Source: Actinacidiphila cocklensis (GTDB lineage: Bacteria > Actinomycetota > Actinomycetes > Streptomycetales > Streptomycetaceae). Taken from it: 64,000 nt of DNA. Positions 4,161 through 39,678 of the stretch are shown here, one piece after another; positions within the stretch are counted from its first letter, which is position 1; each line of letters opens with the position of its first letter. The notes beneath the pieces were generated by a model that did not search any database, had not been told where the DNA came from, and saw nothing but the letters and a program-made list of their open reading frames with translations. A program made the translations under genes and the position numbers. Location of the stretch: contig NZ_CAJSLV010000048.1 of NCBI RefSeq assembly GCF_907177275.1, positions 1 to 64,000 on the forward strand, in the 5' to 3' direction.

Positions 4161-5342
4161 TCAGGCGATCTTTCCGGCGATCTTGGACACCGACTCGGCG
4201 TACGCGTCGACGGCCTGGGCCAGGACACGGCGCTGCGCGTCGGTGACCTTGCGGTAGTCGACGTAGCCGCTGTTCTCGTAACCGGGCGTGGCCGCGTAGG
4301 CCTTGAGGGCGGTGGCGGTGGCCTGGTAGCGCTGGGTGACGGTCGCGGCGAGCGTCGGGTCCTTCGCCTTGAGCACCGGCAGCAGCACGGTGACCGCCTC
4401 GTTCGCACCGGCCAGGTTGCCGTCGAAGTCGAGCAGGTCGATGTGCGAGTAGCGCTCCTCCTCGCCAGTGATCTTGGAGGACTGGATCTCGTTGACCAGG
4501 TCCGTGGCGCCGTTGGCGATCGCGGCGGGCTGGTACTCGACGGTCTGCACCTTGGTGTAGAGGTCGTGCACGTCGGCGCTCAACTGGTCGGCGAGCGCGC
4601 CGAGTCCCGCGGTGGAGTTCTTCTCCCACAGCGCCTGCTCGATGCGGTGGAAGCCGGTGAAGTCGGCGGCGGTGGGGGCGTCGTCGATGCGGCCGTCGAT
4701 GCGGCCGTCGATGTCGCCCCAGATCTCCGCGGTCGGCTCGATGCGCTCGTAGTGGATACGGGCCTTGCCGTAGAGCGTCTTGGCCTCGTCGGTCTTGCCC
4801 GCCTTGACCGCGGCGGTGAACGCGTCGGTGCCGGTGACGAGTTCCTTGACCTCGCCGGTGACCCAGGTCGCGTACTGCTGGGTGGCGGCGACCAGCGCCG
4901 GGTCGTCCTTCCAGGTCTTCTTCGCGGCGCCGGTCACGGTGAAGTCGGTCTTCTCGGTCTTCGCGCCGGGGCAGTAGATCTGGTACTTGCCGGCGTCCAG
5001 GTTGAGGGTGAAGTCGCCGGACAGACCGGGCGTCAGGTTCTCCTTCTCGCCCAGGATCTTGCCGCCGTCGAGGAGTTCGGCCTCGGTGACCTTCGCGGAG
5101 CCCTTGTTGCTGATGTCGAACTTCACGGTGCCCGCGGTCACGGTCGCCGGGTCGGGCGCGCAGTCCTTGTCGCTGATGGCGATGGCGACGGTGGCGGACT
5201 TGGCGGAGGCGTTCTTGCCGTCAGCGGACCCGGAGCCCTTCGAGTCGTCCTTGTCGCCACCGCAGGCCGCCAGCAGCAGGCCTGCGGAGATCACGGTGGC
5301 CGCGCAGGCCAGGGCTCGGCGGTGGGTGGCTCGGGGGGTCAC
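4161..5342 (-). CDS. efeO: EfeO: iron-binding lipoprotein with cupredoxin and M75 (imelysin-like) domains
   Basis: EfeO captures iron outside the membrane and passes it to EfeU. From the GTG at 5342 the product is 393 residues. It has a lipoprotein signal ending LLLAAC, with the lipid-attached Cys near residue 27. A cupredoxin-like domain follows (about 45-150, with IYCPGA), then an M75 domain with the HxxE metal motif in FHRIEQALW. I chose the GTG because CAGGAG precedes it at correct distance; the frame is open to 5408, which would add 22 residues before the signal peptide. A 12-bp triplicate at about 4683-4718 encodes the repeat DGRIDGRID, a small in-frame expansion. Confidence 0.94.
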   Translation of the reverse strand: MTPRATHRRALACAATVISAGLLLAACGGDKDDSKGSGSADGKNASAKSATVAIAISDKDCAPDPATVTAGTVKFDISNKGSAKVTEAELLDGGKILGEKENLTPGLSGDFTLNLDAGKYQIYCPGAKTEKTDFTVTGAAKKTWKDDPALVAATQQYATWVTGEVKELVTGTDAFTAAVKAGKTDEAKTLYGKARIHYERIEPTAEIWGDIDGRIDGRIDDAPTAADFTGFHRIEQALWEKNSTAGLGALADQLSADVHDLYTKVQTVEYQPAAIANGATDLVNEIQSSKITGEEERYSHIDLLDFDGNLAGANEAVTVLLPVLKAKDPTLAATVTQRYQATATALKAYAATPGYENSGYVDYRKVTDAQRRVLAQAVDAYAESVSKIAGKIA

Positions 5343-5420
5343 GGTCAGCTCCTGTTGGGGGTTGCGTACGTACGGGGACGGGTACGGCGCCGGTCGGTCG
5401 GTCGTCACGGGGGGGGGCGG

Positions 5421-6251
5421 TCAGGCGGCGGGTTGCGGGGCGGGGGCCTTGCGGGCGCGGGCCGGCCACAGCACGACGGCGGCCATCGGGATCGCGTAGA
5501 CCAGCCAGCCGGTGACCATCGTCCAGTCGGGGTACGGCTGGATGCCCAGGACGCCGGTGGCCACGGAGGAGGTGGGGGTGCCGGGGCGCACCAGCCATGA
5601 CAGGTCGAACGCGCGGGTGCCCTGCTCCAGCCAGCCGCCCTCGACTGCGGTCATCAGCGCGGTGGCCACCAGCCCGGCGGCGACCAGGATCAGCACCAGG
5701 CCGGTGACGCGGAAGAAGCGCGAGAGGTTGATGCGGACGCCGCCGCGGTAGATGCCGTAGCCGATGACGGCGGCGAGCACGACGCCGAGCGCGGCGCCGG
5801 TGCCGCCGTAGGCGGGGTTGTCGCTCTCGTTGAAGGTCGCCAGCAGGAAGACCGAGGTCTCGAAGCCCTCGCGCAGCACCGCGAGGAAGGCCATCAGCAC
5901 CAGCGCGGAGGCCGAGCCCTCGGTCAGTGCGCGGCCGGCCGCGCCCTCCAGGTCCTTGCGCAGGTCGCGCGAGTGGCGCTTCATCCACAGCACCATGTAG
6001 CTGACCATGACCACGGCGATGGCGCCGATGACCGTCTCCAGCTGCTCCTGCTGCTTCTGCGGCAGGTCGCTGGAGTAGATCTGCAGCCCGACCCCGACCG
6101 CGACGCAGATCGCCACCGCGATGGCGACCCCGAGCCACACCTTCTTCAACGCGTCCCGGCGCCCTTGCTGGGCCAGGAAGGAGGCGATGATGCCCACGAT
6201 GAGCGCCGCCTCCAGTCCTTCGCGGAGTCCGATGACGAACGTGGGGAGCAT
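5421..6251 (-). CDS. efeU: EfeU: FTR1-family ferrous/ferric iron permease
   Basis: This 276-residue integral membrane protein is the channel of the Efe iron uptake system. It has the two REXXE iron-translocation motifs of the Ftr1/OFeT family: REGLE at residues 10-14 and REGFE in the middle of the protein (LREGFETSVFLL). About seven hydrophobic segments are visible. The ATG at 6251 is preceded by AAGGA. It is the first gene of efeU-efeO-efeB, followed by efeO after a short gap, and the iron box at 6297-6315 lies 46 bp upstream. Confidence 0.96.
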   Translation of the reverse strand: MLPTFVIGLREGLEAALIVGIIASFLAQQGRRDALKKVWLGVAIAVAICVAVGVGLQIYSSDLPQKQQEQLETVIGAIAVVMVSYMVLWMKRHSRDLRKDLEGAAGRALTEGSASALVLMAFLAVLREGFETSVFLLATFNESDNPAYGGTGAALGVVLAAVIGYGIYRGGVRINLSRFFRVTGLVLILVAAGLVATALMTAVEGGWLEQGTRAFDLSWLVRPGTPTSSVATGVLGIQPYPDWTMVTGWLVYAIPMAAVVLWPARARKAPAPQPAA

Positions 6252-8736: not shown

Positions 8737-10998
8737 TCAGTGCGAGGAGCACACCGAGGTGAGCGGGCTCCTGCCGGTACGCTCCTTGATCTTGTCGAGG
8801 ATCGCGAGCTGGTCGTCCAGGCTCTCGGGGTCGGCGAGGAAGCGCAGCACGGCGAGCGCGAAGGCGTCGCGGACCTCGGCCGGCATCGCGTCGGAGGCGT
8901 CGTAGCAGCGGAGCGCCGTGGGGTCGCGGAGGGTGCCGGTCATGCCGGTGTCCGGATAGCCGTCCAGCACGGAGCCCTTGACGGAGAAGCCGGACCGGGT
9001 TCCGGCCCAGGCGCGTTGGGCCTCGTCGGAGGCGAGGTAGGCGATCAGCTTGGCGGACTGCGGGGTGCTGTGCAGGACCGCGGCGAGGTCGCCCGAGACC
9101 TCCCAGCTGTTGCGGGCCACCGCGCCGGGGATGACGTCGGCGGAGTGGACGTACGCGGCCCCGGCCGCCTTCCAGCCGTCGCTGCCCTGGGCGATGGACG
9201 ACTGGTGCTCCAGGCGGCAGGTCGGCGGCTTCATCGCCACTCCGTCGGCGGCGTGCCCGAAAGGCGTGGTGAGGCGGGCGGGCGTCAGATCCGGTCTGCC
9301 CGCGCCCACCATGTCGCCCCAGGTGGTCCAGGCGCGGCGGACCCTGGGGTCGTGCTGCCACGACAACCCGCCGCTGACCCAGCTGTCGTAGGTGGCCTTG
9401 TCGGTCTGCTGGAGCAGGATGTCCTCGATCCAGTCCGAGCCCGGCCAGCCGGAGGTCGCGTCGCTGCCCATGCCCAGGCACCAGGACGCGGGCGTCCGCG
9501 CGGCCTGCGCGACCCCTGCGGCGTCCAGGTCCTTCGGGTGCCACACCATGCTCTTCAGGTCGGTCTTCATCGGCAGCCAGTACGTGTGCTCCTTGCCGTC
9601 GGTGCCCTTGACCGGGGTGACCCACGTCGAGGCGAAGTCGCCCTCGGCGACCAGGTCGTCGAGCGGGGTGAGCAGGCCCTCCGCCGCGTAGCCGGCCAGT
9701 TCGCCGGGTCCTGGCAGTATCGCCACGTCCGGCGGCGTGCCGGACTCGACGTCGGCGGCCAGCACCTGGCTCTCGGCGGAGCTGCCCTGGTAGACGACGT
9801 GGATACGGTATTCGTCCTCGAACTTGTCGATCACCTGCTGCTGGAACCGCTCCTGCTCCGTACCGGTCCAGTTGGCGAGCAGGGTGACCGAGCCCTGCCA
9901 GCCGGTGGCCCGGAAGACGATGGCGCCGCCGCCTGCGAGCACCACCAGGCACGTCGCGACGATCCCGACCGTGCGCAGCCGCGGCCATTTCAGCGTGACG
10001 GCCCCGACCCGGTACTCGTTGGTCCGCGGCTGGAGCCCCAGCAGGACCAGCAGCGCCAGCAGCAGGCCGCCGACCGGGATCCAGCCGGTCACCGCGGCAC
10101 GGAAACCGGTGTCGGCGAGCCTGCCCGAGACCTGCGCCCCGGCGCGCGGGATGGCGTTGCCGGCCAGGGGACGGGCGAGCGCCGTACGGGCGTCGGCCAT
10201 CGCGGCATGCGTCAGCGCGGTGAAGGCGACCAGCACGGCGACCCCGGCGACCAGCAGGACGCAGGCGGCGAGCAGCGGGACATTGAGCTGCCGCCGGAAG
10301 CGCGCCCCGGAGAAACGGTGCGCCTCGGCGAGCAGCAGCAGGAGTGCCAGGGCCAGGGCGAGCGCGACGCTCCACTCCAGCCACAGCAGCGGCCCGAAGT
10401 CGGTCTGCCGGCGCACCGATTGCTCCTGCTCGGCGTGCAGCGCGGCCAGCCTGCCCATGACGGTGGCGTCCGCCGCGGGACCGGTGACCTCGATGCCGAG
10501 CGTGCTGACGGCGTAGGACAGATAGGCCTGCCGCAGCGGGCTCATGGCGGGTTGGGCCTCGGCGTCCTCGATCCACCCGGAGTACGTGGCGATCAGGCCG
10601 GTCACGGTCTGGATCGTCTGCCGCCCGGCCACGTCGGCTCCACCGGCGGCCCGGGCGAGGCTCAGGTTGGCCACCGACAGGCGGGTGTGGAAGTCGCCCG
10701 TGCTGCCGTCGTTGAGATCGATGTCCTTCTGGGCCTCGATCAGCGCGTCCTTGGCGGTGTCGACGGCCAGCACGCCGGGGGCCCCGGCCGACTTCAGCGG
10801 CACCGCGTCGGAGTGCACCCCTCGGTAGGCCTGGAAGAGCGTCCCGGTGGCCAGGACCACCAGGACGAGCAGCAGCAGTGTGCGGCGGGTCAGTTCGCGC
10901 AGGGTGCGGCTGGTGCCCGGCGCGGTGGCCCCCGCGGGCACCGCCGCTGTCGCCGCGGCGGTCCGGGTCTGCGGTATCGGGGCCGCGCGGTCGCTCAT
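8737..10998 (-). CDS. Membrane sensor fused to an extracellular solute-binding domain (GlnX/GlnH-like fusion)
   Basis: This 753-residue protein joins two modules usually encoded separately. Residues 1-370 hold a helix at about 41-58, a helical extracytoplasmic domain (about 60-200), and four more hydrophobic helices near 200-228, 240-265, 305-325 and 345-367. Residues 370-753 resemble a family 1 (sugar-type) solute-binding protein: TEQERFQQQVIDKFEDEY and GTPPDVAILPGPGELAGYA are typical. Five helices with the N-terminus inside place the binding domain outside. In mycobacteria GlnX (membrane sensor) and GlnH (binding protein) signal to PknG. The ATG at 10998 overlaps the vWA stop by 4 bp, and a PknG orthologue lies two genes upstream. 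Role as a ligand sensor for the kinase is inference. Confidence 0.8.
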   Translation of the reverse strand: MSDRAAPIPQTRTAAATAAVPAGATAPGTSRTLRELTRRTLLLLVLVVLATGTLFQAYRGVHSDAVPLKSAGAPGVLAVDTAKDALIEAQKDIDLNDGSTGDFHTRLSVANLSLARAAGGADVAGRQTIQTVTGLIATYSGWIEDAEAQPAMSPLRQAYLSYAVSTLGIEVTGPAADATVMGRLAALHAEQEQSVRRQTDFGPLLWLEWSVALALALALLLLLAEAHRFSGARFRRQLNVPLLAACVLLVAGVAVLVAFTALTHAAMADARTALARPLAGNAIPRAGAQVSGRLADTGFRAAVTGWIPVGGLLLALLVLLGLQPRTNEYRVGAVTLKWPRLRTVGIVATCLVVLAGGGAIVFRATGWQGSVTLLANWTGTEQERFQQQVIDKFEDEYRIHVVYQGSSAESQVLAADVESGTPPDVAILPGPGELAGYAAEGLLTPLDDLVAEGDFASTWVTPVKGTDGKEHTYWLPMKTDLKSMVWHPKDLDAAGVAQAARTPASWCLGMGSDATSGWPGSDWIEDILLQQTDKATYDSWVSGGLSWQHDPRVRRAWTTWGDMVGAGRPDLTPARLTTPFGHAADGVAMKPPTCRLEHQSSIAQGSDGWKAAGAAYVHSADVIPGAVARNSWEVSGDLAAVLHSTPQSAKLIAYLASDEAQRAWAGTRSGFSVKGSVLDGYPDTGMTGTLRDPTALRCYDASDAMPAEVRDAFALAVLRFLADPESLDDQLAILDKIKERTGRSPLTSVCSSH

Positions 10999-12422
10999 GA
11001 CGCCCCCAGTACGTGGCCGCAGTGGGTGCAGAAGCGGGACCTGGACGGGATGCGCCGGCCGCACCCCGGGCAGTCGATCAAAGCCGCGCCCGGCTGCAGG
11101 CCGGGATCAGGCCCCACGCCTCCGGGCTCGGGGCCGTAGGTGCTGTGGGTGCTCGCGGTGATCAGGTGCTGGAAGTCCACCGGGTCGATCTTCCGGCGCA
11201 GCGACACGATGCCCGCGGCGGCGTCGTGGATCTCCACCAGCCGCCGCAGATCGGCGAGTTGGCGCTGGGCACCGGACCGCGCCGCGAGGGCGACGGCCGT
11301 ACCGAGCAGCTGCTCGGCACGGTCGAGGTCGTCGCGGTGGTAGGCGTCCGCGGCGGCCGCGGCAGCCTCGCCCAGTTCCTCCCAGTGCTGGAAGTGCAGC
11401 ACCTGCTCGTCGGTCATACCGGACAGCGCCGGGTCGTCGGTCCAGTTGACCACCAGCGGCTGGGGCGCGGGCGGCCGCAGACCGGCCTGCGCCGGGAGCC
11501 GGACCCCGACCTCGGCGACCATCAGCTCCTCCCCGTGCAGCTGCCCTTCGGGATCGGCGGCGACACAGACGTGGAACCGGCGGGCCTCGTTGCCCCAGGC
11601 CCGGGTGACGTACGCCCCCGGCTCGCCGGCCTCCGCGGTCAGCAGCGCCTCGTTGGGGAAGGTCTGCCGGACGTAGCGCAGCCGGCTGCCGGCGAACGCC
11701 TCCACGGTGAGGGTCAGTTCCGGCACCGACTTGGCGAGCAGGCCGAGCATCAGCTGCGTGTACGCACCGACGAGTTCGGACTCCGCACGGACGGCGTCCG
11801 CGGAGCCGTGCAGGGCGCCGGCCACCTGGAGCAGCACGTGGGCGTCCCAGCCCTCGCCGATGCCCCAGGCGTCGCAGACGAACCTCCCCGCGGCCGCCTC
11901 CAGGACGCCGGCCAGCGGCCGGAAGTGGTCGTGCTTGTTGCGCCCGTCGGTGAGCATCAGCACGTGCTTGATCGGGGCGGACTGCCCGGCGAGCAGTTCG
12001 CCCGCCCGGTGCAGCCAGTTGCCCACGCAGGTGCCGCCGCCCACGACCATCCTGTGCACCGCCATCTCCGCCGCGTCCTTGGTGGCCGCGGAGGCCACCG
12101 CCATCTCCGTGGGCGCCTCGCCGGTCTGCGGCGGGTAGGCGGTGGCCGCGAGGTGGTTGCCGGCGACGACGGCGAAGGGCGTGCCGTCCGGGAGCAGCCG
12201 GATCGCGGCGATCGCGGCGTTCCTGGCCTCCCGGAACTTCTCCTCCGGGTCGTTCATCGAGGTGGAGCAGTCGACCACCAGGACCTCGGCGAGCGCGGGT
12301 CCGGGCATCGCGCCGTCGGCACCGCTGACCTCGACGGTCACGATGGCGTGCAGGTCCTTCTCGCCCGCAACGGCGGGGAGGTACTTCTGCTGGCTGACCG
12401 CGAGGCCGATCGTGGTGTCCAC
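10995..12422 (-). CDS. vWA-domain protein with C-terminal zinc ribbon
   Basis: This 475-residue cytoplasmic protein has a von Willebrand A domain with an intact MIDAS: DCSTS in LVVDCSTSMN, a Thr in VVGGGTCVGNW, and Asp in MLTDGRN. An Ala-rich helical segment follows (EELGEAAAAAADAYHRDDLDRAEQLL region). A zinc ribbon closes the protein (CPGCGRRIPSRSRFCTHCGH). It starts at a GTG at 12422 after GTGAGGAG. It lies between the PknG-like kinase and the fused sensor and overlaps the sensor start, so all are co-transcribed. It could act as a metal-dependent scaffold or FHA-independent kinase partner; no direct evidence shows this. Confidence 0.88.
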   Translation of the reverse strand: MDTTIGLAVSQQKYLPAVAGEKDLHAIVTVEVSGADGAMPGPALAEVLVVDCSTSMNDPEEKFREARNAAIAAIRLLPDGTPFAVVAGNHLAATAYPPQTGEAPTEMAVASAATKDAAEMAVHRMVVGGGTCVGNWLHRAGELLAGQSAPIKHVLMLTDGRNKHDHFRPLAGVLEAAAGRFVCDAWGIGEGWDAHVLLQVAGALHGSADAVRAESELVGAYTQLMLGLLAKSVPELTLTVEAFAGSRLRYVRQTFPNEALLTAEAGEPGAYVTRAWGNEARRFHVCVAADPEGQLHGEELMVAEVGVRLPAQAGLRPPAPQPLVVNWTDDPALSGMTDEQVLHFQHWEELGEAAAAAADAYHRDDLDRAEQLLGTAVALAARSGAQRQLADLRRLVEIHDAAAGIVSLRRKIDPVDFQHLITASTHSTYGPEPGGVGPDPGLQPGAALIDCPGCGRRIPSRSRFCTHCGHVLGAS

Positions 12423-12496
12423 TGTGGTCGTGACTCCTCACCGATGAGCTGCTGCTGCCGTGGGGTTGCGGGGGGCGTTGGGAGGTCGGGGGCCGG

Positions 12497-14893
12497 TCAG
12501 AACCGGCTCTGCGGGCGGACGGCGTAGGCGCGGTCGAGCAGTTCGGGGCGGTCGGCGGCCGGCGCCTGGCCGACGAGGGTGCGCAGCGACCCGTAGAGCA
12601 GCTGGGCCAGCGCCCTGCGGCTGCCGGCGCCCTGGAACAGCTCCCCGGGGGGCAGCGGGGTGAAGTCCTGCGTGTCGGGGCCGGACAGGGTCAGCGCGAG
12701 GACCAGCCGGGCACGCCAGGAGGCGGGCCGGGGCGGTGCCGGGTGGCCGGCCAGGACGTTCTCCCGGATCTCGGCGACCAGCCGGTCCCTGGCGTCGTCC
12801 TGCGGCTGTTCCGCGAGCCGCACCACGGCCTTCGTGAGGTCGGCGGACGAGGGCGCGGTGCCGCCGACCCGGCCGGTGAGGATGCGCAGCGCGGCGATCC
12901 GGGCGAGGTTGTAGTTGCGGGAGGTCGTGGGCACCTGGTCCAGCACCCGTACCGCGGCGGCCCGGTCGCCGTGCAGCAGCCGCAGCCTGGCCAGTCCGAA
13001 GGCCGCGCTGGTGTGCGCCTTGTCGCGCTGCCAGACGGCCCGGTAGTAGGCCTCGGCCTCGGTCGCCGCGTTCTCCGGGTCGATGCCGGCGCGCAGGTAC
13101 TCGGCGCAGTAGCCGAGCGCCAGCTTCGGCGCCCACTCGCCCGGCACTGTCGCGTAGACGGCGGCGAACTCGCCCTGCGCGTCCCTGACCTGCCCGCGCA
13201 TCAGGTGCAGCAGCCCGCGGTGCCACGGCGGCCGCCAGTCGTAGCCGGCGACGTCGCGCCCCATCAGCCGTACGGCCTCGTCGAGCCAGTGCTCCGCCGC
13301 CGCAAGGGCCTTCCCGCCCGCCGGGCCGGGCTCGCCGGACAGCAGATACGACCGGCACAGCCACAGCGCGACCTCGACGGTCTGCAGCGCTGGGTCCTCG
13401 CGGGCCCGCTCGGCCGTGCGTTCGGGCGCGTCGCCCGCCAGGCCGCCGAGCAGCACCGCCGCCGGGTCGCCCGGGTCGGCGATCGGTCCCGGCAGCGCGC
13501 GGGCGGTCTCGTGCGGTGCGGGCGCCCGCGTGGCCAGGTCGGGCGGCGCGACGCCCTCGGGCCGCTGCGTCCAGTGGGTGAGCGCGGGGACCGTGCCGAG
13601 GGCGGCGCCGAACGCGACCGCGGTCGGCTCGAAGCGGGTGGAGCGCTCGGGGAAGGGCTCGCAGCCTTCCAGGGCGCGGTGTTCGCGCAGCACCTCCCAC
13701 AGCTGCCGGGACATCTGCGCGGCGGAGGTGAAGCGAGCGGCGGGGTCGGCATGGGTGGCGCGGCCGATCAGCCGGTCGAAGGAGCGGGCGGCGAGCCCGG
13801 CGGGGACCTTGGCGCGGGTCGCGAGCGCGGCCAGCGTGCGGCCGACGGTGAACAGGTCGGTGTCGACCCGGAAGCCGCGCGCGTCGCGCTCGCGCTTCTG
13901 CGGGGCGAAGCCCGGGGTGTAGACCAGGGCGCTGGTGCGGTCGTCGATGCGGCGGACCGCACCGAGGTCGATGATCTTGATCTGCCGCTCGTAGTGGATG
14001 ACGTTCTCGGGCTTCATGTCGCAGTACAGCAGGTCCTGGTCGTGCAGGTACTCCAGGGCGCCGAGGATCTTGCAGCCGTAGGTGACGACGTGGTCGAACG
14101 CGAAGGGCCCGCCGAACATCCGGGACAGTTCCTCGTCGGACGCCTTCAGCAGCTGGTCCAGCGGCCGGCCGGCGACGTACTCCATGACGATGTAGTCGGT
14201 GGGCTCCGCCTCGCCCGCGCGCCGGTGCTGCTTGGACGCGATGATCCCGACGATGTCGCGGTGGTGCAGCGTGGTCAGGGAGCGCCGCTCCTCGACGGCC
14301 TTGCGGCGGGCCGCCGCGTCCTGGGTGTTGATCTGCGTCTTGAGCACCACCCGCTGGCCCGGCAGGTCGAGGTCCTCGGCGAGGTAGACCCAGCCGGTGC
14401 CGCCGGGCGAGAGGTACCCGATCACGCGGTACTGCCCGGCGACCACGTCACCGGGGCCGAGCTGCGGGCGGAAGGAGTAGCGGGTGCCGCACAGCGGGCA
14501 GAAGCCCTCGTCGGGGGCCGGCCCGCCGTCGTAGGACACCCCGATGGTGCCGGCGCAGTCCGGCACGCCGCAGCGCCGGCCGCCCTCGGGGCGGCGGACG
14601 GTGGCGCGGACGACGTCCTCGTCCGCGGGGCGCGGGAAGCCGGGCAGCTGGACCAGGCCGTCCCGGTCCAGGCCGCCTGCGGACCCGGCCGGGCGCGGCG
14701 CGGCGGGCGCGTCCGTGTCGGACGGCGCGGGCCGCGGTCCCGGTACGGTCGCCTGCCCCGTGGTCCCGCGTGCGGGGGCGGTGTCGGCGCCGGGTGCCGT
14801 CGAGGGGTGGCGGTGGCAGGTGCCGCAGTAACCGGAGGCCCGGATGGTGCCCTTGCAGGGCACGTGCGGGCACGGTGAGCCGGGCGCGGTCAC
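12497..14893 (-). CDS. pknG: PknG-type Ser/Thr protein kinase (rubredoxin-like, kinase, TPR)
   Basis: A close relative of mycobacterial PknG, 798 residues from a GTG at 14893 that overlaps the upstream stop as GTGA and follows GGAGG. Order: an N-terminal zinc knuckle (C8, C13, C23, C26), a disordered Pro/Ala linker, a rubredoxin-like ribbon (C108, C113, C132, C135, with FCPLCGTRYSF), a kinase domain and TPR helices. Kinase marks are GPGDVVAGQYRV, VVLK (about Lys185), YCDMKPENV in place of HRDLKPEN, and IDLGAV in place of DFG. Those two departures match PknG (YNDLKPEN, IDLGAV). The C-terminus ends AVRPQSRF, like PknG. PknG controls 2-oxoglutarate dehydrogenase through OdhI/GarA in other actinobacteria; the target here is not in the window. 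Confidence 0.93.
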   Translation of the reverse strand: MTAPGSPCPHVPCKGTIRASGYCGTCHRHPSTAPGADTAPARGTTGQATVPGPRPAPSDTDAPAAPRPAGSAGGLDRDGLVQLPGFPRPADEDVVRATVRRPEGGRRCGVPDCAGTIGVSYDGGPAPDEGFCPLCGTRYSFRPQLGPGDVVAGQYRVIGYLSPGGTGWVYLAEDLDLPGQRVVLKTQINTQDAAARRKAVEERRSLTTLHHRDIVGIIASKQHRRAGEAEPTDYIVMEYVAGRPLDQLLKASDEELSRMFGGPFAFDHVVTYGCKILGALEYLHDQDLLYCDMKPENVIHYERQIKIIDLGAVRRIDDRTSALVYTPGFAPQKRERDARGFRVDTDLFTVGRTLAALATRAKVPAGLAARSFDRLIGRATHADPAARFTSAAQMSRQLWEVLREHRALEGCEPFPERSTRFEPTAVAFGAALGTVPALTHWTQRPEGVAPPDLATRAPAPHETARALPGPIADPGDPAAVLLGGLAGDAPERTAERAREDPALQTVEVALWLCRSYLLSGEPGPAGGKALAAAEHWLDEAVRLMGRDVAGYDWRPPWHRGLLHLMRGQVRDAQGEFAAVYATVPGEWAPKLALGYCAEYLRAGIDPENAATEAEAYYRAVWQRDKAHTSAAFGLARLRLLHGDRAAAVRVLDQVPTTSRNYNLARIAALRILTGRVGGTAPSSADLTKAVVRLAEQPQDDARDRLVAEIRENVLAGHPAPPRPASWRARLVLALTLSGPDTQDFTPLPPGELFQGAGSRRALAQLLYGSLRTLVGQAPAADRPELLDRAYAVRPQSRF

Positions 14894-16710
14894 GTCGGCG
14901 TACCTCCATCGTCGCGGTGCGGGGCGCCGGGGGCGGGCTCCGCGGCGGGGGCGGGCGGCTGTACGGCGGGGGCCGGCGGCTGTACACCGGGGGCCGGTCC
15001 GGCGGCGGGCGGGCGGGTGCCCGGGCGGTCCACGAGGTCGCGGAAGGTACGGACCGCGGCCTCCGCCGCCGCCACATCGCAGGGGCGCTCGCGCAGCAGC
15101 CGGTGGGCGGTGAGGTACAGCTCGTCGGCCTCCAGGTCCTCGCCGCGGGCGGCGCTCTCCTCGTACAGCCGGCGGTACGACGCCAGCTCGCCCCGCAACT
15201 CGTCGCGCCGGAGCAGCAGTTCGTTCAAGGACGTGAGGGCGTGCGCCAGATGGTGCTCGGCGCGGGACGCCACCCGCGCGTAGCGCGCCAGGTCGGGGCC
15301 GTCCTCCGGCGGTACGGCGAAGGCACCCTGGCCCGCGGCCAGTTCGGCGCGCGCGGTGATCACGTGGATCAGCGCGTCGACCGCCCTGTCGGTCAGCTCG
15401 TCGTCCCCGCGCACCCGGGCCATCAGGCGGTCCAGCTCGCGGCCAGGGCCTTCGATGATCCGCGCGAGCCGGTCGCCGAGCCGCGCCCGGCCCTCCAGCG
15501 CGGGCCGCAGCAGCAGCTCCTCCCGGGCGCGGGCCGCGTACCCGCCCGCGCTGCGGAAGACCAGCAGCACCCGGCTGCCCCGGGCGACCAGCAGCCCCAG
15601 CAGGCCGATCAGCGACGGCGGGTCCGCGGCCGCGTCCACCCCGTCCACGACCAGCGTGATGGTCACCGTGGCCGTCGCGATGCGCTCGGCGGCGGGCAGT
15701 TCGAGGTGCTGGAGCAGTCCCATCCGGCCGGCGATCCGCTCGGCGATCTCGTCGGTGCTGCGGCCGGTCGCGATGACCGCGAGGTCGAGGCCGCCGGCCG
15801 CCGGCACGGTGCCGGGCGCGTCCAGCGAGGGGCGCCCGGTGGAGAAGCGGCTGCGCAACTCCCGGTCGGCCAGGGTGATCGCGCGGCGCAGGGTGGCCGC
15901 GCGCACCCGGTCGCCGTCCGGTACGAGGCTGATCTTGACCTGGCGGGCCGTGTCGCCGCCGCGCAGCCAGAGGGCCAGCCGCTCGGCGAAGGGCTGGTCG
16001 AGCAGCGCCTCGTCGTCGCCGGACGCGGCCGAGCGCAGCTCCTCGTCGACCGCGGTCATGCCGACCGTCCACGCGCCGACCTCGGGCAGGTGCTGCACCA
16101 CGGTCTCGGCGGGGCTCATGAAGGTGAAGCCGCCGCCCTCCTCCGGCGACCTGGCCAGCACCATGCCGATGACCTTGTCGGTGGCCAGGTCCACCACCCC
16201 GCCGCCGCTGAACCCGCGCCGGGCGATCTGCCCCGGGCTGGTCGGCTGCAACAGCACCTGGCCGTCCCGGCCGCAGCCGCCGAGGATCGTGGCGGGCAGC
16301 CACAGGCCGCCGTTGTAGTGCTCGGGGAAGCCGTACATCCGCACCTGGCGGCCGGGGGCGGACACCCGGTAGAGCGACGTCGCCTCGGACGCGGGCCGCG
16401 GGCGGTCCAGTTCGAGCAGCGCGACGTCGCCGACGGGGTCGCCGTTGCGGTCCCGCTGCTCGGGACGGTAGGCGTCCCCCACGACCCTGGCGGCCACCTC
16501 CGGCACCTGGTAGCCGGTCGCGCTCCCGGCCGCGCCGACGAACTCGGCGGTGACCTTCTCCTCGCGGCCCACCACATGGGCGCAGGTCAGCACCCGGTCA
16601 GGGCTCAGCAGAATCCCGCTGCCCGCGATCGTCCCGTTGGCCCGCCGGATCCGCACCGCCCAGGACGGCGTCGCCAGGGGCCCGGTACCGATTCCCCCGT
16701 CGGCCTCCAT
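14890..16710 (-). CDS. Trypsin-like serine protease with degenerate STAND/AAA-like region and coiled coil
   Basis: This 606-residue protein has an S1-type protease domain in its first 200 residues, with His in LTCAHVV, Asp in GDVALLEL and Ser in RRGFSGGGVV. No signal peptide is present, so it acts in the cytoplasm. The middle has a Walker-B-like strand (ITLVVDGVDAAAD) followed by RVLLVFRS, reminiscent of STAND NTPases, but the matching P-loop position reads VIATGRSTDEIAERI and lacks the GKS/T. The C-terminal third is helical. I prefer the ATG at 16710 after TAAGG; GTG 16719 is an alternative. It is first in the PknG operon and divergent from a trypco2-like gene. Confidence 0.82.
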   Translation of the reverse strand: MEADGGIGTGPLATPSWAVRIRRANGTIAGSGILLSPDRVLTCAHVVGREEKVTAEFVGAAGSATGYQVPEVAARVVGDAYRPEQRDRNGDPVGDVALLELDRPRPASEATSLYRVSAPGRQVRMYGFPEHYNGGLWLPATILGGCGRDGQVLLQPTSPGQIARRGFSGGGVVDLATDKVIGMVLARSPEEGGGFTFMSPAETVVQHLPEVGAWTVGMTAVDEELRSAASGDDEALLDQPFAERLALWLRGGDTARQVKISLVPDGDRVRAATLRRAITLADRELRSRFSTGRPSLDAPGTVPAAGGLDLAVIATGRSTDEIAERIAGRMGLLQHLELPAAERIATATVTITLVVDGVDAAADPPSLIGLLGLLVARGSRVLLVFRSAGGYAARAREELLLRPALEGRARLGDRLARIIEGPGRELDRLMARVRGDDELTDRAVDALIHVITARAELAAGQGAFAVPPEDGPDLARYARVASRAEHHLAHALTSLNELLLRRDELRGELASYRRLYEESAARGEDLEADELYLTAHRLLRERPCDVAAAEAAVRTFRDLVDRPGTRPPAAGPAPGVQPPAPAVQPPAPAAEPAPGAPHRDDGGTPT

Positions 16711-37488: not shown

Positions 37489-39678
37489 GTGGCGGAACGC
37501 GTGCTGTCCGGGCGCTACCGGCTGGTAGAACGCCTCGGGGCGGGCGGCATGGGCGTGGTGTGGCGTGCGGAGGACCTGGTGCTGCATCGCGAGGTGGCGG
37601 TGAAGACCGTTGCGGGACCCGGCGTCACCGATGAGGCGGCCGCACGGCTGGAACGCGAGGCCAGGGCGGCCGCTGGGCTCACCGACAACCCGCATGTGGT
37701 CACCGTGCACGACTTCGGCCGGGACGGCGACACCCTCTTCATCGTGATGGCCCTCGCGGCGGGGCAGCCCCTCGACCGGGTGCTGTCCGTCGACGGTGTG
37801 CCCTCGCCCGCGCGGGCGGCCGACTGGGCGGGCCAGGTGTGCGCGGCTCTGGAGGCTGCGCACTCGTTAGGCGTGGTGCACCGCGACATCAAACCGGCGA
37901 ACGCGGTGCTCGGCCCGGACGGCACCGTCCGCGTACTCGACTTCGGCATCGCCTGGTTCCACCCCGACCTCGGCCTCGATCGGCTCAGCCGAACCGGGGG
38001 CGTCATCGGCAGCGCACCCTGGATGTCGCCCGAGCAGGCCCGCGGCGAGGAGGTCGGACCGGCCTCAGACCTGTACGCGCTCGGCTGCCTTCTCTACCAA
38101 CTACTCACGGGGGAACCGCCGTTCGGGGGTCGCGAGGCGCTGAGCCAGATCGTGGCCCACGCCATGGAGGTGCCCGAGCGGCCTTCGGTGCGGCGGCCGG
38201 GGCTGCCTGCCGCACTGGACGACCTCGTGGTTGAGCTGCTGGCCAAGGACCCGCGTGACCGACCCGCCTCGGCCGCCGTCACCGCCGCCCGGCTCGGCGC
38301 CATCGCCCGTGAGCTGGGCGAGCGGGAGACGGCGGGCCGTCCGACACCGCCCCCGGTGCCCCCGGCAACCCTGACGGCCCCCGAGCCCGACCGGCGACCG
38401 GTGCGGCGGCGTACCGTCCTGTTCGGCGTGTTCGGGGTGGTCGCGGTCTCGTCGACGGCGGCGGTGTTCGTACCGCAGGTCCTCGACGGCGGGGGCGACC
38501 CGGGCGGGAACAGCAAGGGCGGCACGGACGGCACCTCCGGCACGGGCACCCTGGAGTACCGCTGGAAAAAGACCACGCCCATGGAACCCTTCGCCGCCGC
38601 GGGTCCCGTCGTGCTCACCCGGGACGGCGACGACCATTTCGTGGCGTACGACACGAAGACCGGCGGCGAGCGCTGGCGCGGGCCCGACAACACCGGCGAC
38701 GAGTATTCGAAGTCCTCGAGCGCGGTGTACGTCACGGTGGACGATGTGGCGCTGCACTGCCTCGACCCCGCCACGGGAAAACGCCGCTGGGAGTTCGCCC
38801 CGCTCGGCGCCCACGACACGACAGCCGGGGTGTCACTGGTCGTGGCCCCGGAGGCCGTCTATGTGGGCATCGGCTCGCATGTGTACGCGGTGGACCACGC
38901 CACCGGACATGAACGCTGGCACTACCAGCTGGACAACAGCGTGGCGAACGTCGACGACCTGTGGCAGGTGGGCGGACTGCTGCTGGCCCGCGTCGAGTCC
39001 AGTGACACGAGCTTCGTCATGATCAGCACCTTCACCGGATTGCCGCACTGGCCCCGGCCCTGGACCGCCCCGGACACCATCGCGTCCTTCATCGGCGCGG
39101 TGGGCGACCGGCTCTTCTTCGCCGTTGACGGAACGACCGTGGTCAGTGCCACCAGCGGCACGGTGATCCAGACCTACAAGAACATCAGGGTGTCCAAGGT
39201 CGTCCCCGAGCACGAGGTGCTGATCAGCGACCTGGACACCTCGGTAAGCGCCTGGTCGGCCGTCGACGGCTCAGCTCTGTGGACCGTGGTGGATGCGCGC
39301 ATCCCCTCCGTCGTGCAGGACACCGTGCTCATGAACAAACTCATCGGCGGCGGAACGACTGCCGCCACGGTCGGCATCAACCTGCTCAGCGGCGCGGAGG
39401 TGTGGCGCCAATCGGGTTCGTGGCTTTTTTCGACATTGGATCCCGATCAGCCGGTGCTGCTCGGGGTCGGCGCAGGCACCGGGATGGCCCGGGTCGACCC
39501 GAAGACCGGCGCACTCGGCCCGGTCCGCCGGCTGCCTGACAAGGAGCTGGACTACGCCCAGGCGTACGGCGACACGGTGTACGCGCGCTGCTTCGACCTC
39601 CCCTACGACTCCAACCATCCCGACGCGGACCGCGGCGGCCCCCGCCTCTACGCCGTGGACCTCGCGAAGTTCGCGTGA
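37489..39678 (+). CDS. Membrane Ser/Thr protein kinase with extracellular PQQ-like beta-propeller
   Basis: A 729-residue Hanks-type kinase. The kinase domain (residues 8-265) has GAGGMGVVW, VAVKTV, HRDIKPANAV, DFGIAW and APWMSPEQA. A Pro-rich juxtamembrane segment leads to one helix (TVLFGVFGVVAVSSTAAVFV, about 306-325). The outer part is a repeated Trp-containing beta-propeller of PQQ type (GGERWRG, KRRWEF, HERWHYQ, SALWTVV, EVWRQSG). It probably senses an extracellular ligand or envelope state. The start is a GTG at 37489 after GGGGAGGAACC. Confidence 0.93.
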   Translation: MAERVLSGRYRLVERLGAGGMGVVWRAEDLVLHREVAVKTVAGPGVTDEAAARLEREARAAAGLTDNPHVVTVHDFGRDGDTLFIVMALAAGQPLDRVLSVDGVPSPARAADWAGQVCAALEAAHSLGVVHRDIKPANAVLGPDGTVRVLDFGIAWFHPDLGLDRLSRTGGVIGSAPWMSPEQARGEEVGPASDLYALGCLLYQLLTGEPPFGGREALSQIVAHAMEVPERPSVRRPGLPAALDDLVVELLAKDPRDRPASAAVTAARLGAIARELGERETAGRPTPPPVPPATLTAPEPDRRPVRRRTVLFGVFGVVAVSSTAAVFVPQVLDGGGDPGGNSKGGTDGTSGTGTLEYRWKKTTPMEPFAAAGPVVLTRDGDDHFVAYDTKTGGERWRGPDNTGDEYSKSSSAVYVTVDDVALHCLDPATGKRRWEFAPLGAHDTTAGVSLVVAPEAVYVGIGSHVYAVDHATGHERWHYQLDNSVANVDDLWQVGGLLLARVESSDTSFVMISTFTGLPHWPRPWTAPDTIASFIGAVGDRLFFAVDGTTVVSATSGTVIQTYKNIRVSKVVPEHEVLISDLDTSVSAWSAVDGSALWTVVDARIPSVVQDTVLMNKLIGGGTTAATVGINLLSGAEVWRQSGSWLFSTLDPDQPVLLGVGAGTGMARVDPKTGALGPVRRLPDKELDYAQAYGDTVYARCFDLPYDSNHPDADRGGPRLYAVDLAKFA

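Follow-up and report, generated by a model that had tools for sequence, protein, structure and literature searches.

A second, paralogous PknG operon in Actinacidiphila cocklensis, probably relaying an outside solute to its kinase

The closest described system is the GlnX-GlnH-PknG-GarA/OdhI relay, which, in the available parts of three papers (PMC6069109, PMC9769921, PMC8546545), combines a kinase of rubredoxin, kinase and TPR domains with a sensor of four transmembrane (TM) helices and short cytoplasmic ends, and with a binding protein outside the cell. The topology of GlnX has been established for Corynebacterium glutamicum (PMC9769921, in part), and its cytoplasmic portions are proposed to meet the TPR domain of PknG, with no motif named for this contact in those parts of PMC6069109 and PMC9769921. 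The same parts of the mycobacterial and corynebacterial work describe the locus as glnX-glnH-pknG only (PMC6069109, PMC8546545, PMC9769921). Here we analyse an operon at positions 8737-16710 of the window, by which we mean the whole 64,000-nucleotide stretch of Actinacidiphila cocklensis contig NZ_CAJSLV010000048.1 under study. The operon resembles the relay in its kinase, its sensor and its outside binding protein, and the same genome holds a GarA-like FHA protein (L152; L numbers denote loci). It differs in that its kinase lies outside the canonical clade, its GlnX-type sensor is fused to the binding protein, and a protease adaptor and a vWA protein are part of the operon. An earlier note on this DNA had taken the kinase for a PknG orthologue in an alternative, larger complex. 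Its observation is confirmed, but the orthology claim falls, and the reading that replaces it is more specific: a PknG module that is paralogous, has another class of binding protein, naturally fused to the sensor, and carries a protease on its scaffold. We give a probability of roughly 0.6 to the reading that the operon is a second PknG relay from solute to kinase, probably for a sugar-like ligand.

Four open reading frames (ORFs) make up the operon, in the order protease, kinase, vWA protein with zinc ribbon, and membrane protein:
14890-16710, minus strand: protease-adaptor gene; the ORF is also open from GTG 16719
12497-14893, minus strand: pknG-like kinase gene, a paralogue (Pfam, tree)
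10995-12422, minus strand: vWA gene (Pfam, metal-site motif, hhalign)
8737-10998, minus strand: gene for the fused GlnX-like/solute-binding membrane protein, from ATG 10998; the ORF is also open from GTG 11064

The genes are as tightly packed as the earlier note had reported. The protease gene, first in the operon, overlaps the kinase gene by 4 bp (14890-14893), 74 bp separate the kinase and vWA genes, and the vWA and membrane-protein genes overlap by 4 bp if the latter begins at ATG 10998.

The kinase has the domain order PknG_rubred, Pkinase, PknG_TPR (Pfam) and the motifs YCDMKPEN and IIDLGAV, so that the rubredoxin-kinase-TPR order and YxDxKPEN/IDLGAV motifs previously read from it stand:
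14459-14659, minus strand: rubredoxin-like domain with its four Cys present (PknG_rubred, Pfam)
13808-14413, minus strand: kinase domain with catalytic residues K185, E203, D292, N297 and D309 intact (Pkinase, Pfam)
12749-13648, minus strand: PknG-type TPR domain (PknG_TPR, Pfam E value 2e-46)

Profile comparison with hhalign aligns the window-type kinase to PknG with a probability of 100, and K185, E203, D292, N297, D309 and G311 are kept in 25-26 of the 26 cassette kinase rows, the missing row being a gap. The kinase is, however, a paralogue of PknG. Queried with the rubredoxin and TPR families of PknG, its own genome gave two loci on the same contig, and the second, matched at 277.9-280.3 kb and about 260 kb from the window locus, scores much more strongly. 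This copy is the true orthologue and sits with glnX and glnH at 273.6-283 kb of the contig; the window operon is hence additional to the standard system and not an alternative to it. A tree of 63 kinases, built by a quick method with Shimodaira-Hasegawa-type approximate likelihood-ratio (SH-aLRT) supports and no bootstrap, separates the two copies. Of the 68 named canonical loci it samples 24, chosen by hand so as to be widely spread, and L042 and L044 are not in it. A branch with SH-aLRT 100 sets apart 36 canonical PknGs, which come from Mycobacterium, Nocardia, Amycolatopsis, Micromonosporaceae, Streptomyces and others and include the genome's own second copy (L003). The window kinase is not in this group but in a clade of 17 cassette kinases from Streptomycetaceae (support 98), and the remaining cassette kinases also fall outside the canonical side, L059 and L061 on a branch of length 1.69. 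This wide spread may reflect an old duplication or transfer between families. Given the better PknG with standard neighbours on the same contig and the fully supported split, we rejected orthology of the window kinase. PknG-like kinases occur in other settings too: at L057:8693-12298 and L147 one is fused to the post-vWA part of the canonical vWA protein and to zinc ribbons, and at L058:9539-15412, in the same genome as L041, one lies in a very long open frame.

The canonical locus of the same genome offers the most direct comparison:
contig C47, 273.6-284 kb (L003:7597-16932 and L060:433-1482): glnX-glnH-coiled coil-pknG-PP2C-vWA plus an FHA ORF

The run comprises glnX, a binding protein of family 3 (GlnH-type), a coiled-coil protein, pknG, PP2C with a zinc ribbon, and vWA, followed by an FHA/zinc-ribbon ORF (L060:433-1482). 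With at least six genes against the four of the window operon, it lends no support to the description of the latter as larger. The vWA protein, the kinase, the GlnX part and the helical partner domain of the operon all have counterparts there. The operon differs in having no PP2C or FHA gene, in bearing its zinc ribbon on the vWA protein and not on PP2C, in its added trypsin and STAND-like domains, and in the class of its binding protein. Only the binding domain and the added domains of the module are without a canonical counterpart. We worked with the best 80 of 561 confirmed loci as named loci; setting 12 aside as non-canonical leaves 68 canonical ones, of which 6 span less than 19 kb. A coiled-coil gene was recognised in 40 of these 68, a PP2C gene in 37 and a vWA gene in 35; the coiled-coil gene is missing in 22 of 23 Pseudonocardiaceae and 4 of 5 Mycobacteriaceae. 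The adjacency of kinase, PP2C and vWA in the canonical locus is shared with TerY-type vWA/PP2C/kinase triads; the window operon has no PP2C. The GarA-like gene of the genome (G000:C96:30829-31023, L152) encodes a zinc ribbon, the sequence SETTSTISISG, with an ETT motif of the kind that is the phosphosite in GarA, and an FHA domain. Its product is a candidate substrate for both kinases.

The membrane protein, in which the earlier note had suspected both a sensor and a binding domain, does carry both: a GlnX-type part and a family-1 binding domain, which some relatives encode as separate genes (residues are counted from GTG 11064):
10009-10881, minus strand: GlnX-like part, residues 62-352, with four TM helices and an outside helical bundle (NCBIfam GlnX, E value 2.9e-13)
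9913-9969, minus strand: TM5, linking the GlnX part to the binding protein (TM pattern, structure model)
8740-9891, minus strand: solute-binding domain of family 1 (SBP_bac_1), residues 392-775 (Pfam E value 2.7e-12)
10282-10296, minus strand: cytoplasmic loop RRQLN between TM2 and TM3, with an R..N pair conserved in GlnX
10009-10026, minus strand: tail motif R-T-N-E-Y-R directly after TM4 (alignment)

The similarity to GlnX, on which the earlier proposal hinged, appears in the sequence, in the four-TM pattern and in the cytoplasmic tail. Aligned by hhalign, the GlnX part of the 15 genus loci matches canonical GlnX with a probability of 98.1 (E value 6e-14; controls 0.2 and 0.3), and the separate GlnX genes of cassettes match NCBIfam GlnX in 9 of 9 cases, with E values from 5e-30 to 6e-4. 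Besides the four TM helices of GlnX, the fusion has a fifth before the binding protein. Its architecture is that of GlnX, with four TM helices, helical bundles on the outside and a short tail in the cytoplasm, although the second outside bundle is much shortened. A structure model agrees with the TM pattern, at a mean predicted local distance difference test (pLDDT) score of 84.7; 4 of the 28 rows of its alignment carry a wrong-frame N-terminal half. Sensor and binding protein share one ORF in 9 of the 15 genus loci (the window, L040-L046 and L051) and occupy two in the other six (L047-L050, L052, L053), as they do in the distant cassettes L059, L061, L072-L075, L077, L087 and L142. L051 lies apart from the other fused loci on the tree, and may therefore have fused independently. 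For ligand screening and structural studies, a single chain of this kind is convenient.

The family-3 (amino-acid) glnH neighbour of canonical pknG is absent from the window operon, where the binding domain belongs to family 1. By hhalign the outside domain has no match to GlnH (probability 0.1), and we rejected it as a GlnH homologue. Sugar-binding proteins predominate among the 50 PDB matches listed for it, and relatives of this family-1 protein occur in 10 of the 12 non-canonical named loci. Because the domain belongs to family 1 and its nearest folds are mostly sugar binders, the ligand is most likely a sugar or oligosaccharide. The cassette departs from the stated expectation that binding proteins linked to PknG have amino-acid ligands.

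A shared cytoplasmic end ties the two kinds of sensor together. R-x-x-E-Y-R ends GlnX proteins after TM4 and stands at the same place in the fusions, where a linker and TM5 follow. Our alignment holds 99 GlnX-type rows, 75 tagged canonical, 9 from distant cassettes and 15 from genus cassettes; one row from the non-canonical L078 and that of the L009 orphan count among the canonical ones, and the whole set consists of related sequences, weighted towards Streptomyces and Amycolatopsis. The tail residues R, E, Y and R reach majority fractions of 0.97, 0.98, 0.96 and 0.93, and those of R and N in the TM2-TM3 loop are 0.95 and 0.94; the median of all 427 columns is 0.40. Some periplasmic and TM columns are conserved to the same degree as the tail. 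A complete E-Y-R is found in 15 of 15 genus cassettes, 7 of 9 distant cassettes and 68 of 74 tagged canonical proteins, the exceptions being L074 (DYR), L087 (EYQ), L078 (RYL), L114 (EYH), L127 (EFG) and L118, L120 and L146 (EFL). L076 and L095, outside the 99 rows, both show EYR by eye. The window protein has both the R..N loop and the R..EYR tail, a feature defined in this analysis and not taken from a published definition; the string 'EYR' has no occurrence in the main texts of PMC6069109 and PMC9769921, with figures and supplements outside the search. The tail is a candidate contact for the kinase. Comparison of two paralogous systems with different binding proteins points to these six residues, which can be mutated directly in Corynebacterium or Streptomyces. 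An orphan third GlnX-like gene (G000:C44:102623-103900, L009:8498-9904) encodes four TM helices and the tail RRFAEYR and scores 176.7 bits. No module query matched within the 18 kb around it at an E value of 1e-8, in a search that also missed the orphan itself.

The protease protein appears to be built onto the partner that canonical pknG already has (residues are counted from GTG 16719):
16108-16659, minus strand: trypsin-like domain, residues 21-204, with an intact His/Asp/Ser triad (Trypsin_2, E value 1.3e-11; best PDB match 3k6z)
15556-15996, minus strand: alpha/beta domain, residues 242-388, resembling a STAND-type nucleoside triphosphatase without Walker A (model, profile match)
15028-15543, minus strand: C-terminal helical domain, residues 393-564, in common with the canonical coiled-coil partner (hhalign)

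Its structure model has a trypsin fold, an alpha/beta domain and a long helical part, with a mean pLDDT of 80.9; by blocks of ten residues, the alpha/beta domain scores 77-97, apart from one block at 54. The protein has no hydrophobic N-terminus, and its hydropathy maximum, at residues 370-388, corresponds to a helix and a strand within the alpha/beta domain of the model, which makes the earlier description of a cytoplasmic protease reasonable. The C-terminus aligns to the canonical coiled-coil partner with a probability of 96.8 and an E value of 3e-10 in hhalign, where PP2C and GlnX as controls gave 0.2 and 0.3. With a profile of the whole adaptor, searched against 296 genomes of the phylum, the C-terminal positions 387-574 match a separate gene in 10 genomes, and in all 10 a PknG_TPR match follows 1.3-2.1 kb further downstream, in the same orientation. 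The alpha/beta profile aligns, with an E value of 9e-5, to a region of L170 that bears GSPGVGKS and VIDALDEA. L170 (G216:C9:215318), from another genome of the family, is a trypsin protein whose STAND-type nucleotide site is intact, and the adaptor may derive from a protein like it. The vWA protein retains the metal-site motif DCSTS...GGGT...LTDG and aligns to the canonical vWA protein over nearly its full length (hhalign probability 100); its C-terminus carries one further domain:
11007-11078, minus strand: zinc ribbon, matching that of canonical PP2C (hhalign probability 87, E value 4e-6)

Across genomes these genes travel together, as the earlier proposal requires. Window-type kinases, defined by at least 60% identity, occur in 15 of 35 Actinacidiphila genomes, and all 15 have the vWA and GlnX/binding-protein genes beside them. 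The protease lies next to the kinase in 14; in G014 (L046) the kinase is at a contig end and the adaptor on another contig. The comparison of PknG neighbourhoods that the earlier note had called for cuts both ways, with window-type PknGs accompanied by the protease and canonical ones not. Two further genus genomes hold a divergent form with a Trypco1-type gene (L059, L061), and related cassettes, with variants, are found in five other genera. The 12 non-canonical named loci belong to Streptomyces (L072-L074, L077), Actinomadura (L075), Streptosporangium (L076, L078), Amycolatopsis (L087, L142), Saccharopolyspora (L095) and Actinacidiphila (L071, L147); at L095 the helical part of the adaptor is the only part matched. 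PknG_TPR itself is present in 193 of 200 genomes. A full-length adaptor occurs in 16 of 91 Streptomycetaceae genomes, all 16 of which carry at least two PknG_TPR matches, compared with 10 of the 75 without an adaptor (Fisher p 2e-11, for genomes that are related and not independent, and with two matches occasionally representing perhaps one split gene). A joint-keyword search of open-licence literature, with a check of titles, found no paper on a second PknG operon of this kind.

Taken together, these findings suggest a course of events for the relay. A membrane-anchored family-1 binding protein outside the cell would capture a solute and, once loaded, act on the GlnX-type helical sensor, here within one chain. 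The four TM helices would carry the change to the cytoplasmic side, where the R..N loop and the R-x-x-E-Y-R tail would contact the TPR domain of the second PknG and switch its selectivity or activity. The kinase would then phosphorylate a target, for which the GarA-like FHA protein of the genome is a candidate. The protease protein may serve as the scaffold partner of the kinase, a role proposed because its helical C-terminus matches the partner encoded beside canonical pknG; trypsin and decayed STAND-like domains would have been grafted onto that C-terminus. An adaptor with an intact triad may cleave a partner on signal, and one without could only bind. The vWA protein would be a second scaffold, and the products of the operon may assemble into a complex.

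Several observations weigh against this relay. The GlnX part of the window protein scores 49.7 bits (E value 2.9e-13) against a cut-off of 250 bits for NCBIfam NF058618, which none of 14 valid cassette proteins reaches (the best, a separate gene, has 104.9 bits); in the NCBIfam GlnX scan L061 gives an E value of 0.008 and L059 no match. The ligand class is weak, as identity to solved sugar binders among the 50 matches listed is 11-18% and some of these matches bind dinucleotides or opines. L078 combines trypsin, kinase and vWA with a GlnH-type protein, and at L057 and L147 no binding protein was found with the PknG-like kinase. The tail motif might be there for membrane topology and not for docking; the orphan GlnX of L009, beside which no PknG was found, carries it too. 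The tree does not establish a single clade of all 25 cassette kinases. Finally, the alpha/beta domain has no Pfam match and its best PDB row, a designed protein, has an E value of 0.014. We rejected both as sources of an identity for it, and the view that it is a STAND-type domain that lost its nucleotide site has the modest evidence of a single match.

It is tempting to speculate further that PknG and GlnX form a general platform for reading outside solutes through an exchangeable binding protein, that the R-x-x-E-Y-R tail is a universal kinase-switching contact, and that the scaffold captured a trypsin-STAND conflict protein. We hold this broader idea only tentatively and doubt it more than we believe it; if true, the cassette would be a nutrient-gated protease or peptide-binding complex.

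Another possibility, which we judge unlikely, is a conflict or cell-death system in which trypsin, vWA and a STAND-like effector stand under the kinase and the binding protein senses a molecule from an invader or competitor. The available parts of PMC7159879 describe vWA-centred conflict systems with trypsin/Trypco, iSTAND and VMAP, in which trypsins accompany vWA proteins, nearly all inactive in one position, and a kinase-PP2C-vWA theme recurs. The operon and its relatives resemble them in having vWA and STAND-like domains and a trypsin that often lacks its triad, and the adaptor is related to trypsin-STAND proteins whose Walker A is intact. In Pfam searches no Trypco1 or Trypco2 was found among the four window proteins, but a Trypco1 (trypsin-co-occurring) gene follows the related cassette in L061, with similar genes after the cassette in L059, L076, L087 and L142 and beside it in L078. 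Patchy occurrence within the genus points the same way, as does a weak similarity of the trypsin to LmuA, a defence protein (E value 8e-7). Unlike those systems, the operon has no MoxR ATPase among its four proteins and pairs a PknG-type kinase with a nutrient-type solute sensor; iSTAND systems are said in the same source to be almost absent from actinobacteria (PMC7159879, in part). The PADLOC matches listed were kinase-domain ones, 25 out of a total of 32, and weak trypsin ones, with no specific model among them, and identity with a known anti-phage system is not supported. An efeU/efeO or quinone oxidoreductase gene lies close to the operon in 9 of 14 genus relatives, so for the most part the operon has kept its location. 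Of 72,556 plasmid records searched, not one covers 80% of the window kinase at an E value of 1e-40; three records match at that threshold, each over 41-44% of the query and one of them 11.85 Mb long, and plasmid-borne spread is not supported.

It is less probable still that the protease adaptor is itself the output, freed or activated through phosphorylation by a kinase that has no metabolic target. The position of its gene at the head of the operon, overlapping that of the kinase, would fit, as would the intact triad of 9 of 14 genus adaptors (the window, L040-L045, L047, L048) and of 7 of 7 aligned distant ones (L059, L061, L072, L073, L076, L087, L142); L046, at a contig end, is left out of the trypsin alignments, and L074, L078 and L095 out of alignment A3. 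Yet the triad is replaced in the other 5 of 14 (L049, L050, L052, L053 and L051), which form one clade (support 100), so that one loss explains them. The operon is kept throughout this clade, and proteolysis therefore cannot be a universal output. L075, moreover, has a coiled-coil-type partner without a trypsin match beside its kinase, vWA, GlnX and binding-protein genes. In L051 the protease gene (L051:11466-13441) is interrupted by a frame break, and none of the three catalytic residues is left. That the kinase is a PknG orthologue with an enlarged complex, for which its domain order and motifs might speak, is very improbable, as the genome holds the true orthologue with standard neighbours and the tree refutes the idea unless the canonical copy proves to be an intruder.

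Elsewhere in the window, two genes near the operon (4161-6251) encode what we take to be EfeO and EfeU, and one or both lie near the operon in 8 of 14 genus relatives. Another protein kinase is encoded on the plus strand at 37501-38109, with 30% identity across the kinase domain.

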